A DNA stretch of 63,229 nucleotides, from NCBI GenBank assembly GCA_029907465.1, contig JARYLV010000008.1, positions 1-63,229 of the forward strand, written 5' to 3'. The notes under the pieces were generated by a model. It was not told where the DNA came from and searched no databases. It was given only the letters and a program-made list of their open reading frames with translations. Both the position numbers and the translations under genes were made by a program. Shown piece by piece: positions 30,749-37,458 of the stretch; positions within the stretch are counted from its first letter, which is position 1, and the number at the start of each line of letters is the position of its first letter. Origin of the DNA: Methanomassiliicoccales archaeon (GTDB lineage: Archaea > Thermoplasmatota > Thermoplasmata > Methanomassiliicoccales > JACIVX01).

Positions 30749-30862
30749 AGATAGAGCATTCATACGAGTCTATGTAGTATGGGGAATTCTTTTAAATGCC
30801 ATTTTACCAGGTTACTTAATTTTAAAAAGGTCGAAGGATATTTGGTCAGTGAAGTGACACCG

Positions 30863-33800
30863 ATGATTAAGCAAGTTCAACAAAATTACAATCCAGCAGA
30901 AATTGAACAGAAAGTAAAGGAATACTGGGAGATCACAAACGCGTATAAGAAAACAAAAGAGCTTCGATCAAGTGGTTCGGATTTCTATTTTGTTGACGGC
31001 CCTCCATACACGACTGGATCAATACATCTTGGGACAGCATGGAATAAAATCATTAAAGATACTGTGATCAGGTTCAAAAGGATGCAGAAATTCAACGTAA
31101 GGGATCAACCCGGCTACGATATGCACGGACTCCCGATTGAGGTAAAGGTCGAGCAGTCGATTGGAATAAAGAGTAAGAAGGAAATTGAAGAATACGGAAT
31201 CGATAGGTTCGTCAGTACTTGCAAGGAATTTGCTCTCGATTTTCAGAAAAGGATGACTGAACAGTTTAAGGAGCTTGGCGTATGGTTAGATTGGGAAAAC
31301 CCATATATGACGATCAAGCCAGAGTATATAGAGGCAGCTTGGTGGACTCTCAAGAGGGCATATGATCAGGGTCTTTTAACGATTGCACACAGAGTCTTAT
31401 CGTGGTGTCCGCGGTGCGAAACAGCGCTCGCCGAAGCAGAAATTGAGTACTGGGATGAAAAAGACCCATCAATTTATGTCGAATTTCCTTTGAGGGACGA
31501 AGAGGATGTTGCATTGCTCGTTTGGACCACGACTCCATGGACTCTGCCTGCGAATATGGCCGTCGCAATACATCCCGATTTCACATATGCTAAGGTCAAG
31601 TACTTCGGACCTGGTGGTGAAAGTAAAACGATCATCGTTCTTGATAGTTTAGTCGAAGAAGTTGCCGCCCTTTCAGATTATGAAGAATTCGAAGTATTGG
31701 AGACCATTGAAGGGGACGATCTAATTGGATTAGAATACATACCTCCCTTTTACGAAGAGATGCCGTATCAAAAGAATGTAGCGGGTAAATGGGTTCATAG
31801 GGTAGTGCCGTCGAAAAATGTGGCCGCCGAAAATACAGGTCTCGTTCATATCGCTCCAGGACATGGTCCAGAGGATTTTGAGATCGGAATGGAATTCGGT
31901 CTGGAAGCATTCTGTCCAGTTGATGGCACTGGTAGGTTTACTAAGGAGGCAGGAGACTGGCTCGCAGGAATGAATGTAAGAAAGTCCAATGCGGTGATCA
32001 TTGAACGTCTCAGGGAAAAGGGTTTACTATATTATGAAGGAACGATCGACCACCGGTACGGCCATTGCTGGAGATGTGACTCCCCCATCATATACAGAGT
32101 GACTGACCAATGGTTCCTCCGAGTGACTCAGATCAAGGAGATGATGCTTGAAGAGATTGAGAAGATAAGATGGACTCCTGATTGGGCCGGCTCATCGAGA
32201 GAGTATGATTGGACTCTGAATGCGAAAGACTGGTGCATCTCGAGGCAGAGATACTGGGGGATTCCCCTCCCTGTATGGAAATGTGGATGTGGGGAGATGA
32301 AGATCATCGGAACGATATCCGACCTCAGAGGTGCAAAGGGATACAGAGACGGCATGGAGCTTCACCGTCCGTGGATTGATACCGTAATCTTAACATGCGA
32401 GAAATGTGGCGGGGAGATGAGGCGTGTTCCTGATGTTCTTGATGTCTGGTTTGATTCAGGTGTATCAACATGGGCGCAGCTCGGTTTCCCCGGGAATCGG
32501 AAAGATTTCGATAGATGGTGGCCAGCGAAGTGGATTACCGAAGCGCATGATCAGACAAGGGGTTGGTTCTATTCGCAGCTCGCCGCTAGTTGCATCTGTT
32601 TTCAAAGGGCGCCATACGAGTCCGTCCTCATGCACGGCTGGGTCCTGGACCCCACAGGACAGCCGATGTCCAAGAGTAAGGGGAATGTCATAGAACCTTC
32701 AGCTGTCATTAAAGAATACGGCGCAGATGCCTTGAGATTTTATATGATGAGGACAAACGCACCTTGGGAAGATATTGCGTTTCAGTTTGAAGGAGTCAAG
32801 AACGCGAGAAGAACACTTAACATTCTTTGGAATGTCTGCAATTTCGCCACCTCATATATGGTAATTGATAACTTTGACCCCTCATCCGTGAGTAATGAAA
32901 TGCTAAAAGACCATTTACGAACAGAAGACCTGTGGCTTATCTCAAAATGTGAGAAGCTGAAGAACGATGTCACCCGATATCTCAATTCATACGAATTGCA
33001 TAAAGCATGCAGGGCACTCGAAGACTTCATTTTGGAGGATGTCAGCAGGTGGTACGTGCGACTAGTTAGAGACAGAATGTGGAAAGAGGAGGGCGATTTG
33101 GATAAACTCGCAGCGTACAGGACACTCTATGATGCGTTGATGACCACCGTTAAACTGATTGCGCCATTTTGCCCACATATCGCGGAGGAAATTTACCAAC
33201 ATCTTGACGGCTCACTTGAAACTGTGCACATGCTAGAATGGCCAGTTCCGGACATGACAAAGACAAATGATCGATTGGAAACGGCAATGAGAACCGTTCA
33301 GGAAATCGTTGAGATCGTAACAAGAGAAAGACAAAGCAAAGGCGTAAAGTTGCGATGGCCCCTAAGACGGTTGATTATCAAGCCAGCAAATAAGGAGATG
33401 ATGGATTCAATCAAATCACTTGAGAGCGTGCTCCTTTCGCAAGCCAATGTTAAGGCAATAGAGTACGTCGATCCAGATCATGAATGGGAGGAGCTGATTT
33501 TGAATGTAGTTCCGAACCCTCATGCCATCGGAAAAGTCTATAGACAGTGGTCAAGTAAGATTGCCGTACTCTTAAAGAGCAGACCTGCAAAACAAGTGAA
33601 AGAGAGCATTGAGAAGGGGGAGTACTATCTAGGCATAGAAGGGCAACTTATAAAGATCGAGCCGAATATGGTCTCATTCACCGTATCACTTCCCCCTGAT
33701 GTGGTAAGCGCAAAATTCTCTGAAGGTGAGCTATATATCGATTTCAAAATCACGCAGGACATAGAGGCAGAGGGATTCTCGCGTGAATTGATTAGAAGAA

Positions 33801-35110
33801 TTCAGCAGATGAGAAAAGACGCGAAATTAGATATTGAAGAGTACATCAGAGCTCAAATAAGAGCACCGACGAAACTTATTGAGTTCTTCAAAGTCCATAT
33901 GCAGTATATTATGGGCGAAACGAGAGCCAAGGAGCTCGAATTTGTCGATGAACCAAAAGGCGAACTCGTCAGAGAATGGGACATCGAAGGAGAGAGTGTT
34001 GTCATTGGCATCACTTCGATGCATATAAGAGACGCTATGAAGGAGTTCATGAAAATCCCTGGCCTTACAAAAGAAACAGCAATTGCGTTAGTGGAAAGTG
34101 GCTTTAGAAATCTGGAAGAACTGAAAAAAGCGAACGAAGAACGTCTCTCCAGCATTAAAGGGTTAAACAAGAACGATGTGAGGAAGATACTTCATTTCTT
34201 CACAAAAAAAGAAGTTGCTGAAGGTGAGCCTTGCCCTAGCTGCGGCGCACCGATCAAGCCGGGGGTAACGACTTGCCCTTCCTGCGGCAGATCGATCAGC
34301 ACTGAGGAAGAAGTAATGCCAAAAGAGCGGTTAATCGCTTATTTGCTTAGGATCCCCAGGATGAATTCATTAAAGGCTGAGATGCTGTATGACGCTGGGT
34401 TTAACACCATTGAAAAGATCAAGAAAGCAACCAGAGAGGAGCTCAGATCGCTGAAGGGTATCGGTGCGAAAACAGCGGATATGATATATCAATATGCTCA
34501 GTCAGGCGGATTTGAAAAGAATATCACGTGTGGCAAATGTGGATCGGAGATTAGGCCTGATGCTCTCGCTTGTCCTTCATGTGGGACGAGCGTTCCTGTC
34601 GAAGGTGAAGAGATTGAAGAAATTGAAAAGCCTGAGGTTAGGGAAATCGAAGGCCTCGCATTGGAGAAGACTTTCACCTATCTTATCAAGGAGGAAAAGT
34701 CAGATAGATCCTACGAACTGTTCACGAAAGCACTCTCTAAGGGGTTCAAAGGATTCTGTGTGACAAGGAATTATCCATTAAAGATCAAGACGAAGTACGA
34801 CTTGGGAGACACCCCAATCATCTGGCTTTCTAATGTAGGGAAGGACAATAGTCTAAGGCCAAAGGATCTTGAGAAACTAAGTGTCTCTCTGGAACAGTTC
34901 CTTTTGTCAACAAGTAATGGCATTATACTTCTCGACGGGTTGGAATACTTGATCACAAATAACAATTTCCTGACTGTGCTGCGATTTATTCAGTCTCTCA
35001 GAGACCAAGTTGCGATTAGAGAGGCGATACTTCTTCTTGCCCTCAATCCGTCAACGCTTGAACAACACGAATTGAATCTGCTAGAGAAGGAAGTTGATGT
35101 AACGATCTAA
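30863..35110 (+). CDS. ileS: Isoleucyl-tRNA synthetase fused to HhH/zinc-ribbon/DUF835 module
   Basis: About 1,415 residues. Residues 1-1055 are a full archaeal IleRS: DGPPYTTGSIHLGT (HIGH variant, H55), WTTTPWTLPAN of the editing domain, QRYWGIPLPVWKCGCG, PMSKSKGN (602-609), an anticodon-binding domain, and a normal end at EGESVVIGI. The same frame then runs on for about 357 residues. This adds an HhH-like helical pair (about 1058-1115), zinc ribbon CPSC/CPSC (C1124), a second HhH unit (RIPRMNSLKAEMLYDAG ... LKGIGAKTADMI), zinc ribbon CGKC/CPSC (C1223), then a DUF835 domain (about 1267-1410; IILLDGLEYLI). No stop intervenes. The start is ATG at 30863, with TTG at 30842 possible. The synthetase charges tRNA-Ile; the tail role is unknown. 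Confidence 0.93.
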   Translation: MIKQVQQNYNPAEIEQKVKEYWEITNAYKKTKELRSSGSDFYFVDGPPYTTGSIHLGTAWNKIIKDTVIRFKRMQKFNVRDQPGYDMHGLPIEVKVEQSIGIKSKKEIEEYGIDRFVSTCKEFALDFQKRMTEQFKELGVWLDWENPYMTIKPEYIEAAWWTLKRAYDQGLLTIAHRVLSWCPRCETALAEAEIEYWDEKDPSIYVEFPLRDEEDVALLVWTTTPWTLPANMAVAIHPDFTYAKVKYFGPGGESKTIIVLDSLVEEVAALSDYEEFEVLETIEGDDLIGLEYIPPFYEEMPYQKNVAGKWVHRVVPSKNVAAENTGLVHIAPGHGPEDFEIGMEFGLEAFCPVDGTGRFTKEAGDWLAGMNVRKSNAVIIERLREKGLLYYEGTIDHRYGHCWRCDSPIIYRVTDQWFLRVTQIKEMMLEEIEKIRWTPDWAGSSREYDWTLNAKDWCISRQRYWGIPLPVWKCGCGEMKIIGTISDLRGAKGYRDGMELHRPWIDTVILTCEKCGGEMRRVPDVLDVWFDSGVSTWAQLGFPGNRKDFDRWWPAKWITEAHDQTRGWFYSQLAASCICFQRAPYESVLMHGWVLDPTGQPMSKSKGNVIEPSAVIKEYGADALRFYMMRTNAPWEDIAFQFEGVKNARRTLNILWNVCNFATSYMVIDNFDPSSVSNEMLKDHLRTEDLWLISKCEKLKNDVTRYLNSYELHKACRALEDFILEDVSRWYVRLVRDRMWKEEGDLDKLAAYRTLYDALMTTVKLIAPFCPHIAEEIYQHLDGSLETVHMLEWPVPDMTKTNDRLETAMRTVQEIVEIVTRERQSKGVKLRWPLRRLIIKPANKEMMDSIKSLESVLLSQANVKAIEYVDPDHEWEELILNVVPNPHAIGKVYRQWSSKIAVLLKSRPAKQVKESIEKGEYYLGIEGQLIKIEPNMVSFTVSLPPDVVSAKFSEGELYIDFKITQDIEAEGFSRELIRRIQQMRKDAKLDIEEYIRAQIRAPTKLIEFFKVHMQYIMGETRAKELEFVDEPKGELVREWDIEGESVVIGITSMHIRDAMKEFMKIPGLTKETAIALVESGFRNLEELKKANEERLSSIKGLNKNDVRKILHFFTKKEVAEGEPCPSCGAPIKPGVTTCPSCGRSISTEEEVMPKERLIAYLLRIPRMNSLKAEMLYDAGFNTIEKIKKATREELRSLKGIGAKTADMIYQYAQSGGFEKNITCGKCGSEIRPDALACPSCGTSVPVEGEEIEEIEKPEVREIEGLALEKTFTYLIKEEKSDRSYELFTKALSKGFKGFCVTRNYPLKIKTKYDLGDTPIIWLSNVGKDNSLRPKDLEKLSVSLEQFLLSTSNGIILLDGLEYLITNNNFLTVLRFIQSLRDQVAIREAILLLALNPSTLEQHELNLLEKEVDVTI

Positions 35111-35925
35111 AACGCATGGCTATTACAATTTCTCGCACCTCCGCTGTTTGCAAGAAGCGACGATACGACTTTATCTAGCCCGGGGACTATTTCGTATGAA
35201 GCCAGTTCGTTTGGAAGAATCCAGCGATATTCAGTGTGTTCCCAATCAGTAGTTATTTTTGATTCGTCAACATCAAACAAATAGGGGTGGATCGTCCAAA
35301 GGACATCCCCTGATCTGATCATTAATGGCTCGCCAGTTTTTACAAGCTTAGCGCTATTGACACCTAGTTCTTCCAATATCTCCTTAAATGCAGTTTCCAA
35401 AGGCATTTCGCCCTTTTCGACAAAACCGCTGACACCTGCCCAGTATCCTTTAAAGGTTCCCACCTTCTCACTGCGCCTCAGTATCAAAATGCGATCCTTT
35501 CTTTTCAAAATACATGACACGACATGTTTTTCAGCGACCCTAGGGATTTCGACGGTGCCGTTATTCCCATCGACAAGCGCACGATCCCCATCTCTCAATA
35601 GGGACAAATCGATCTTGTCTACGAGCGGTAAGCCTGCCATAACAGCGCCGGTTGCCACGATTGGTTCGGCTTTTTCATTAATAATTGCAGCCGGAGAATT
35701 GCCCGCTCTCTTTAGCTCCAAAATCGTATAAGAACCAACAGTGCTACCCTTCCCCACAGGAAAAACTAGTACCCGACCAGCAATTTGTCTACCTTTCAGT
35801 TCTTTAGGAGTCAGCAAAGAACCTGATTTGGTGTCAACCCCTCCGAGAAAACTGAACGGACAGTGAATGAGGACAAGGTCGCCCTCCGCTTTGCCCTTAG
35901 AGATGCCCCTACCTTTTAAAATCAA
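35107..35925 (-). CDS. Aconitase X swivel (DUF126) domain fused to a Nudix hydrolase
   Basis: A 272-residue two-domain protein. Residues 1-130 are the small swivel subunit of aconitase X (LKGRGISKGKAEGDLVLI, FPVGKGSTVGSYTILELKRA, GDRALVDGNNGTVEIP). Residues about 134-262 are a Nudix fold with box GFVEKGEMPLETAFKEILEE (residues 167-186). The Arg of the Nudix REUxEE motif is Lys, while the three catalytic Glu remain. It overlaps the catalytic subunit gene by 4 nt. In archaea this dehydratase makes trans-anhydromevalonate 5-phosphate in the modified mevalonate route. Why a Nudix is attached is unexplained. Confidence 0.9.
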   Translation of the reverse strand: MILKGRGISKGKAEGDLVLIHCPFSFLGGVDTKSGSLLTPKELKGRQIAGRVLVFPVGKGSTVGSYTILELKRAGNSPAAIINEKAEPIVATGAVMAGLPLVDKIDLSLLRDGDRALVDGNNGTVEIPRVAEKHVVSCILKRKDRILILRRSEKVGTFKGYWAGVSGFVEKGEMPLETAFKEILEELGVNSAKLVKTGEPLMIRSGDVLWTIHPYLFDVDESKITTDWEHTEYRWILPNELASYEIVPGLDKVVSSLLANSGGARNCNSHAF

Positions 35926-37091
35926 GTTATCATCCCCAGGAGTTCGACACAGTCAGCACATTTGACCTTTTGCGCGCACAATGTTGGAAGATAATTGCAA
36001 GCCTTTGCCGAATTAGTCGCAGTGCATGAGTACATGTCTTCAATTGGAGCAACTACCATGCATGTATCACAAACGACCTTTCCAAATTTCTCGAGAATTT
36101 CAACTTCCTTTTTGCATCTTTCTTTAACATATCGCGATGTGCAAAACCAGACATCAATGTCCCTTGTCTTCCTCCTCGATTGCAAGAATTTCGCGAGAAC
36201 TTTCATCTCCCCAATCGACAAATGCGGACAGCCCAACGCGATGAGCTCAGGCTCTTCCCCAGTATTAAGTGATTCACATGCATCATGAAGTTCTTTCTCA
36301 CCGATCTCAATTTTTTCGAGCGTATCAACATCATAGCGATCTGCGCCGGGCGTGACTCCCTCAATATGAAAAATGGCAATAGAGCCAGATGCCGCCATAG
36401 CAGCCGCAAGAGTCTTGATTTCATCTTGAGAAGGTCGTATACCTCTGAAATATGGGACACCGTTCGATACAATTCTGCCAACGGCGTGGCCAAGCAAGGA
36501 GTGATTAAAAACCCCATCTCCAACATCTGCCTCGACAACTACCGTGGGCATTCGATTTTCATTGAGGTGAAGCCCATAATGCGGTGTCTTTCCGATAATC
36601 GCTGCTGCAAGGGCACCAGGTCCTCCTTCCCTGTTCGTTCTCGCTCCGATAACAGAATTAACATAAGAGAGTGCAGAGGATTCGGCCCACGCAACGATAT
36701 CTCCCATCCGTGGCACATTTGTGGTCAAATAGGGCGTACAAGTACAGCTGATTTCGATTCCCATTCTTCGGTAGCATTCAACGATATCGATTTGTTTTCG
36801 CGCGAATATACTCGAAACCCCCATTTCCTTCCACCGTGTCAAATCCATACCAGCGGGATTGAGAGTCGTATGGACACTTACTCTCGCATTACTTGAGATG
36901 TCCAAAAGAAAATCAAGACCTCCCTCACCTATTGTCTTGTATGAGACGCCCGAAAGATGTGCTGAAGAGATAGGAACCAACCGATCCGCATCGTACACTG
37001 TGCCGATCGCCACGAGCAACTCCATAGCCTTTTGATAACCGTATCCTTTCTCTCCATCGAGAATGGCTTCTTCCTCTCTCGTAAGGTACAT
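35922..37091 (-). CDS. Aconitase X catalytic subunit (DUF521), probable phosphomevalonate dehydratase
   Basis: About 389 residues from the ATG at 37091 (MYLTREEEAILDGEKGYGYQ), the conserved family start. Motifs are GGLDFLLDISSNARVSVHTT, CTPYLTTNVP, SYVNSVIGARTNREGGPGAL, and a cysteine-containing C-terminus (DTCMVVAPIED, TNSAKACNYLP) expected to hold the Fe-S cluster. With the swivel subunit encoded next, it should dehydrate mevalonate 5-phosphate in the archaeal mevalonate pathway. Hydroxyproline-type aconitase X is less likely without proline genes. The tRNA-Arg gene lies upstream on the same strand, 76 nt away, and could share transcription. Confidence 0.9.
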   Translation of the reverse strand: MYLTREEEAILDGEKGYGYQKAMELLVAIGTVYDADRLVPISSAHLSGVSYKTIGEGGLDFLLDISSNARVSVHTTLNPAGMDLTRWKEMGVSSIFARKQIDIVECYRRMGIEISCTCTPYLTTNVPRMGDIVAWAESSALSYVNSVIGARTNREGGPGALAAAIIGKTPHYGLHLNENRMPTVVVEADVGDGVFNHSLLGHAVGRIVSNGVPYFRGIRPSQDEIKTLAAAMAASGSIAIFHIEGVTPGADRYDVDTLEKIEIGEKELHDACESLNTGEEPELIALGCPHLSIGEMKVLAKFLQSRRKTRDIDVWFCTSRYVKERCKKEVEILEKFGKVVCDTCMVVAPIEDMYSCTATNSAKACNYLPTLCAQKVKCADCVELLGMIT

Positions 37092-37166: not shown

Positions 37167-37285
37167 CGGGCCTGCCGGGAATTTCATCCCCTTTTCAAAG
37201 GAGAATTTGAACCCGAGTCTGAGGCTTTCTCCGTAGAAAAGCTACACCGGAGGCCTCTGTGATATCCAAGCTACACTACAGGCCC
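37167..37285 (-). tRNA. tRNA-Arg(CCG) with two introns
   Basis: In gene orientation the acceptor GGGCCTG (37285-37279) pairs with CAGGCCC (37174-37168), with discriminator G at 37167. The D-arm is TA then GTGTAGCTTGGATATCAC. Anticodon stem GAGGC/GCCTC encloses loop CTCCGG-A, anticodon CCG. After position 37 is a 20-nt intron (37246-37227), where CTCCG pairs with CGGAG across a bulge-helix-bulge. A second 25-nt insertion (37204-37180) splits the T-arm after TTCAAAT. Removing it joins TCGGG-TTCAAAT-CCCGG, a full 5-bp T-stem with one GU pair. The mature RNA would be 74 nt. CCA is not encoded. Confidence 0.88.
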
Positions 37286-37311: not shown

Positions 37312-37320
37312 CAATAAACC
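37312..37320 (-). promoter_or_regulatory. TATA box of the tRNA-Arg gene
   Basis: GGTTTATTG in gene orientation, centred about 30 nt upstream of tRNA position 1. This spacing suits transcription starting at or just before the mature 5' end. Confidence 0.5.
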
Positions 37321-37458
37321 TTTTGAATTAATGAATAAATATTGAAAAGGTGTAACAAACCTTCCGTGTGACCCAGTCCAGATCTTTAGAGTCTGATAAC
37401 AGGGCGGGACGATGCACAATGATTATTACAGATAACAGTGATTGAGCCTTTGGCACGC

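Follow-up and report, generated by a model that had tools for sequence, protein, structure and literature searches.

The window, the whole 63,229-nt stretch of Methanomassiliicoccales DNA that we analysed, carries a tRNA-Arg(CCG) gene which is very probably single and functional and which is interrupted twice, in the anticodon loop (37/38) and in the T-loop (59/60). Both introns form strict bulge-helix-bulge (BHB) motifs and, judged from the sequence, one splicing endonuclease (EndA) would cut both of them without any need for an enzyme of relaxed specificity. The gene, its introns and their motifs, its single copy, its conservation, the empty sites in orthologues and the layout of EndA are read from the sequence itself.

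The precursor gene lies on the minus strand and extends from its 5' end at 37285 to the discriminator G73 at 37167 (119 nt; mature tRNA 74 nt; CCA not encoded), with support from orthologues. Exon 1 (37247..37285) comprises the 5' strand of the acceptor stem, the D-arm, the 5' strand of the anticodon stem and positions 32-37 (CTCCGG). It is followed by the 20-nt intron 1 at 37/38 (37227..37246; T GTAG CTTTT CTAC GGAG AA) and by exon 2 (37206..37226), which contains A38, the 3' strand of the anticodon stem, the variable loop, the 5' strand of the T-stem and T54-A59 (TTCAAA). The 25-nt intron 2 at 59/60 (37181..37205; TTCTCCTTTGAAAAGGGGATGAAAT) then precedes exon 3 (37167..37180) with T60, the 3' strands of the T-stem and acceptor stem and G73. 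A script was used to enumerate introns with BHB geometry and to score the spliced cloverleaf resulting from each. The best-scoring solution has the anticodon CCG, a length of 74 nt and introns of 20 nt at 37/38 and 25 nt at 59/60, which confirms the product proposed in the initial annotation, and runner-up solutions for the locus score at least 5 points lower. The spliced tRNA forms a full cloverleaf with the conserved T8, A14, G18G19, T33 and TTCRA and an Arg anticodon. Its stems had been said to pair fully, which is not the case, as 13-22 in the D-stem is U-U and 49-65 is U-G. A probable promoter, suggested by the sequence, consists of CAAAAGG followed by a TATA-like TTTATTG at -33 to -27 (37312..37325, minus strand); of the eight relatives compared, the majority have a close counterpart at the same position.

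Standard searches miss this gene. ARAGORN in its default mode reported only tRNA-Leu(GAG) in the window, and an Rfam scan at the gathering threshold did not return tRNA-Arg(CCG), the unspliced locus scoring 15.6 bits against the Rfam tRNA model. The ARAGORN miss and the low Rfam score arise because the T-arm is interrupted. Since both default scans overlook this gene, their silence was not counted as absence. The host genome assembly (1.72 Mb, 44 contigs, 96% complete) contains 44 tRNA genes, and no second, intact Arg(CCG) gene was found among them, which supports the initial annotation. The 44 include no gene for Val(GAC) or Leu(TAG), either of which might be unassembled or hidden by introns. 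Because tRNA genes of Thermoplasmatota are easily missed by standard finders, a tRNA that seems to be lacking in these genomes may in fact be present. Wobble could in principle allow tRNA-Arg(TCG) to read CGG, so that Arg(CCG) is not necessarily essential.

Downstream of the tRNA lies the gene for the aconitase X catalytic subunit (35922..37091, minus strand; PF04412), with a likely start at 37091. Its longest open reading frame starts at 37187 (minus strand), inside the T-loop intron, and overlaps the intron and the 3' exon over 37167-37187; a gene caller using this start would overlap and mask tRNA-Arg(CCG). The window also encodes a protein that joins an aconitase X swivel domain to a NUDIX domain (35107-35925, minus strand), an isoleucyl-tRNA synthetase of 1443 aa (30779-35110, plus strand) with C-terminal helix-hairpin-helix, zinc-ribbon and DUF835 regions, which is an unusual fusion, and an archaeal RNase P RNA (RF00373; 60573-60865, plus strand).

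A BHB is called strict here when a 4-bp helix is flanked by two 3-nt bulges and the cut on each side follows the second base of the bulge. Intron 1 has the central helix CTCC/GGAG, the bulges GG|T and AA|A and the inner helix GTAG/CTAC. The central helix of intron 2 is formed by T54 T55 C56 A57 of the exon (37208..37211) and TGAA of the intron (37183..37186), both on the minus strand; this 4-bp TTCA/TGAA helix is bounded by the bulges AA|T and AT|T, the inner helix TCTCC/GGGGA carries the loop TTTGAAAA, and the T-stem serves as outer helix. Both insertions had been predicted to form a BHB, and both do so strictly; the TCTCC/GGGGA pairing initially placed in the second motif is real but constitutes the inner helix, the central TTCA/TGAA helix having been overlooked. 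An equally good BHB arose in 65 of 200,000 shuffles of the letters of intron 2 and in 13 of 200,000 shuffles of intron 1. The minimum-energy fold obtained with RNAfold contains the T-stem and the inner helix of intron 2 and leaves the TTCA/TGAA helix open. Helices as short as this might become stable only through the enzyme, and the T-loop BHB was retained on covariation and geometry, not on folding energy.

Across the genome, 24 of the 44 tRNA genes contain a total of 27 introns (those of Phe and Cys were solved by hand), a load of about 0.6 per tRNA gene, where averages of 0.21 for archaea and 0.84 for Thermoproteales have been given (PMC8450103). The D-arm accounts for six of them (Thr GGT, Ala CGC, Thr CGT, Leu CAA, Lys TTT and Val TAC), the 59/60 site for four (Arg CCG, Arg TCT, Lys CTT and Lys TTT) and the 37/38 site for the remaining 17. 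The motif is strict in all 10 introns outside 37/38 as against 8 of the 17 at 37/38 (Fisher p = 0.009), although D-arm junctions were picked partly by their fit to the BHB, a bias from which the four T-loop introns alone are exempt, and the junction numbering of the Val(TAC) D-arm intron is ambiguous. By eye, the four T-loop introns share no sequence, as recent transposition would leave, beyond the bases forced by pairing. The tRNA-Lys(TTT) gene (L044:101-234, plus strand, contig C33) has introns in the D-loop and the T-loop and none in the anticodon loop. The tRNA-Trp(CCA) gene (L045, contig C27, minus strand) contains a 98-nt intron with C/D-box-like motifs, in which a match to sR3 reaches 16.8 bits, below the threshold of 41; it adjoins tRNA-Arg(TCT), which carries introns at 37/38 and 59/60.

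A covariance model built from the 59/60 intron was applied to the genome, the order and the phylum. In the host genome it matches exactly the four expected sites. Of the genomes searched, 83 of 120 in the order and 76 of 295 in the phylum have matches, a minority of the weaker ones in distant families being checked individually. Single genomes hold up to seven (G150, G244 and G351, of the same phylum or class), more than the host genome. Solving loci in their context confirmed real tRNAs with 59/60 introns. Across the whole order the tRNA concerned is Arg(TCT), for which the intron is also predicted in the single-contig genomes of the relatives G014 and G035; in more distant members of the phylum it is Arg(TCG), Asp, Glu, Ser or Leu. 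Three loci (L158, L177 and L190) could be solved poorly or not at all. The initial annotation called T-loop introns rare in archaea; this agrees with the literature for archaea as a whole, but by the sequence matches they are common in the Methanomassiliicoccales lineage.

The only EndA found in the host genome is a single open reading frame of 352 aa with two N-C repeats (PF02778 twice, PF01974 twice). The catalytic Y, H and K motifs are present in the second repeat only, the first having F in place of Y, and from domain order and motifs the enzyme has the alpha'2 layout. In the PDB it matches the M. kandleri alpha+beta construct 5x89 best, over 338 residues. Broad-specificity enzymes carry a lysine-bearing loop (CSL or ASL) that follows the YG motif of the N-domain and precedes the LxLS segment, and in the EndA alignment the S. 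tokodaii enzyme (2cv8), taken as a control, displays its 11-residue CSL insertion there. No insertion of the CSL or ASL type is present in either repeat of the host EndA, of 18 relatives from the order or of 14 other Thermoplasmatota enzymes, and these loop-less proteins include those of genomes in which the T-loop intron model has four to seven matches, G150, G244 and G351 among the genomes whose EndA lacks the CSL. An EndA feature separating genomes with and without T-loop introns was sought and none was found. Shorter enzymes of 292-299 aa (G146, G156 and G159) belong to genomes lacking T-loop matches; since enzymes of 318-319 aa (G121 and G150) occur together with five to seven matches, length is not the explanation.

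It had been proposed that two introns in one tRNA imply a relaxed endonuclease, as in Crenarchaeota, whose enzyme bears the CSL loop, or in ARMAN, whose enzyme bears the ASL loop. The literature does pair noncanonical and multiple introns with broad-specificity enzymes (PMC6379350, PMC4033280, PMC12397907), nine of the 17 canonical introns of this genome are relaxed by our definition, and the nearest solved relative of the host EndA, M. kandleri 5x89, has been rated 'constrained broad' (PMC6379350). Broad specificity, however, accompanies a CSL or ASL, whereas alpha'2 enzymes have neither loop and are narrow in specificity (PMC6379350, PMC12397907), and an insertion at that position is absent from every EndA aligned from the order or the phylum. 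The 10 introns outside 37/38 are all strict and should be cut by a strict enzyme, and relaxed motifs are confined to 37/38, a position at which BHL introns of full-length pre-tRNA are reportedly tolerated by an alpha'2 enzyme (PMC6379350). We therefore consider it unlikely that a relaxed endonuclease accounts for the two introns, and favour two strict introns cut by one loop-less EndA.

A narrower question concerns the exact T-loop junction. As T60 and the last base of intron 2 are both T, the spliced product cannot distinguish a cut at 59/60 from one at 60/61, and the initial annotation, which placed the 25-nt intron after TTCAAAT, arrived at the right product with the cut one base too late. 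The strict BHB cut rule is satisfied at 59/60 and violated at 60/61, and the 59/60 register is kept in relatives whose intron ends in A or C (for example L048, L049 and L051), which makes the later cut very improbable.

Comparison with relatives corroborates the two junctions. The named genomes that best match the 5' exon belong to Methanomassiliicoccales and to other Thermoplasmatota, which places the window in or close to that order and agrees with the Thermoplasmatota affiliation in the initial annotation. Blast matches were obtained in 54 of 61 genomes, and 74 orthologous loci could be parsed, which carry both introns, the 37/38 intron only, the 59/60 intron only (L066) or neither. The 59/60 intron is present in 18 of the 45 named genomes whose Arg(CCG) shares the 5' exon, and exon 1 is identical (39 of 39) in several relatives. 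Intronless orthologues show no interruption exactly at the predicted 37/38 and 59/60 junctions, and those intronless at both are identical to the predicted spliced tRNA at 65-71 of 74 positions, so the alignment with related tRNA-Arg(CCG) called for at the outset bears out the prediction.

For covariation, 23 distinct 59/60 introns were assembled from the relatives and from Arg TCT, Lys CTT and Lys TTT of the host genome. In the proposed structure 97.8% of the cells are paired as against 75.9% in shuffles, with 76 double-side changes as against 21.9 and a covariation of 0.618 as against 0.189; the observed pairing, double-side changes and covariation were reached in none of 500 shuffles, and support falls sharply when the structure is shifted by one column. 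The exon position R57 covaries with the intron, being G57-C in 19 sequences and A57-U in four. In one relative (L050) the T-loop BHB is asymmetric by a single base. That the T-loop insert stays unspliced, in a decaying pseudogene or a tRNA with an enlarged T-arm, is hardly credible, given that this is the sole Arg(CCG) copy found and its exons are strongly conserved, that the inserts differ in loop sequence and length and keep their BHB by compensatory changes, that the insert is missing from orthologues at precisely the junction predicted and that three other tRNA genes of the genome carry a T-loop insert too. On single copy, conservation and covariation, the pseudogene reading of tRNA-Arg(CCG) was rejected.

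For a precursor with two separate strict BHB introns, we infer the transcription, cleavage and ligation of tRNA-Arg(CCG), and their order, as follows. An EndA of the alpha'2 layout, with two fused N-C repeats of which the second is catalytic, should cut both motifs independently, because each local motif is the standard arrangement of 3-nt bulge, 4-bp helix and 3-nt bulge. An RtcB-type ligase should then join the exons. RtcB is present only as two fragments (C22:19956-20249 and C32:10646-10795), a 3' part and a 5' part that stops at a contig edge. In the precursor T54-R57 would be held in the central helix of the T-loop BHB, and the elbow between D-loop and T-loop would form only once the 59/60 intron is gone, which suggests an early removal of this intron.

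Taken more widely, it seems rather likely that Thermoplasmatota combine an intron load close to that of Crenarchaeota, in the D-arm, anticodon loop and T-loop, with a single-chain EndA devoid of CSL and ASL. Their noncanonical introns would then need a strict local BHB, relaxed motifs would be tolerated only at 37/38, and the accepted rule that such introns demand a broad-specificity enzyme with a loop would fail. Reviews link introns at odd positions to special endonuclease types and euryarchaeal introns to single canonical ones (PMC4090602, PMC4033280, PMC6379350), and tRNA-Arg(CCG) with its relatives provides a natural counter-case among methanogen relatives. Since orthologues with and without introns occur within one order and the enzyme is loop-less throughout, co-evolution of introns and endonuclease becomes directly testable. 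A search of open-licence papers, which did not extend to tRNA databases such as GtRNAdb, turned up no earlier account of tRNA introns at noncanonical positions for either Methanomassiliicoccales or Thermoplasmata.

The closest counterparts of the T-loop intron are the 59/60 introns of Crenarchaeota (Thermoproteales), which occupy the same site, have a local BHB and often accompany a 37/38 intron (PMC4090602). They belong to a different phylum with a heterotetrameric (alpha-beta)2 EndA, unlike the CSL-less alpha'2 layout seen here, and hBH/HBh' forms also occur among them, whereas the 59/60 introns examined here are strict. Korarchaeum cryptofilum, described as the sole archaeon with an alpha2 enzyme and noncanonical tRNA introns (PMC4033280), likewise joins a homodimer-type EndA with such introns, but its enzyme is said to bear a CSL-like loop that the aligned Thermoplasmatota enzymes lack. 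Several introns per tRNA gene are also known from euryarchaeal methanogens, since Methanothermobacter thermautotrophicus and Methanopyrus kandleri have pre-tRNAs with two introns (PMC4033280). Euryarchaeota as a group have been described as having essentially single canonical introns (PMC4090602), in contrast to the 24 intron-bearing genes reported here, with 10 of their introns outside 37/38. With respect to the enzyme, both repeats have full N and C domains as in M. kandleri EndA (5x89), whose alpha and beta subunits are separate, whereas a natural single chain is present here. The EndA of Archaeoglobus fulgidus (alpha'2; 1RLV, 2GJW), described as narrow in specificity (PMC6379350), shares the single chain, the two repeats, the lack of CSL and ASL and the catalytic motifs in the second repeat, but it is 305 aa long as compared to 352 and aligns only from residue 63 of the host protein. 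Where the T-loop intron sits and which motif it forms are thus already known from Crenarchaeota (PMC4090602), while the lineage, the intron load and the pairing with a loop-less single-chain EndA appear to be new.
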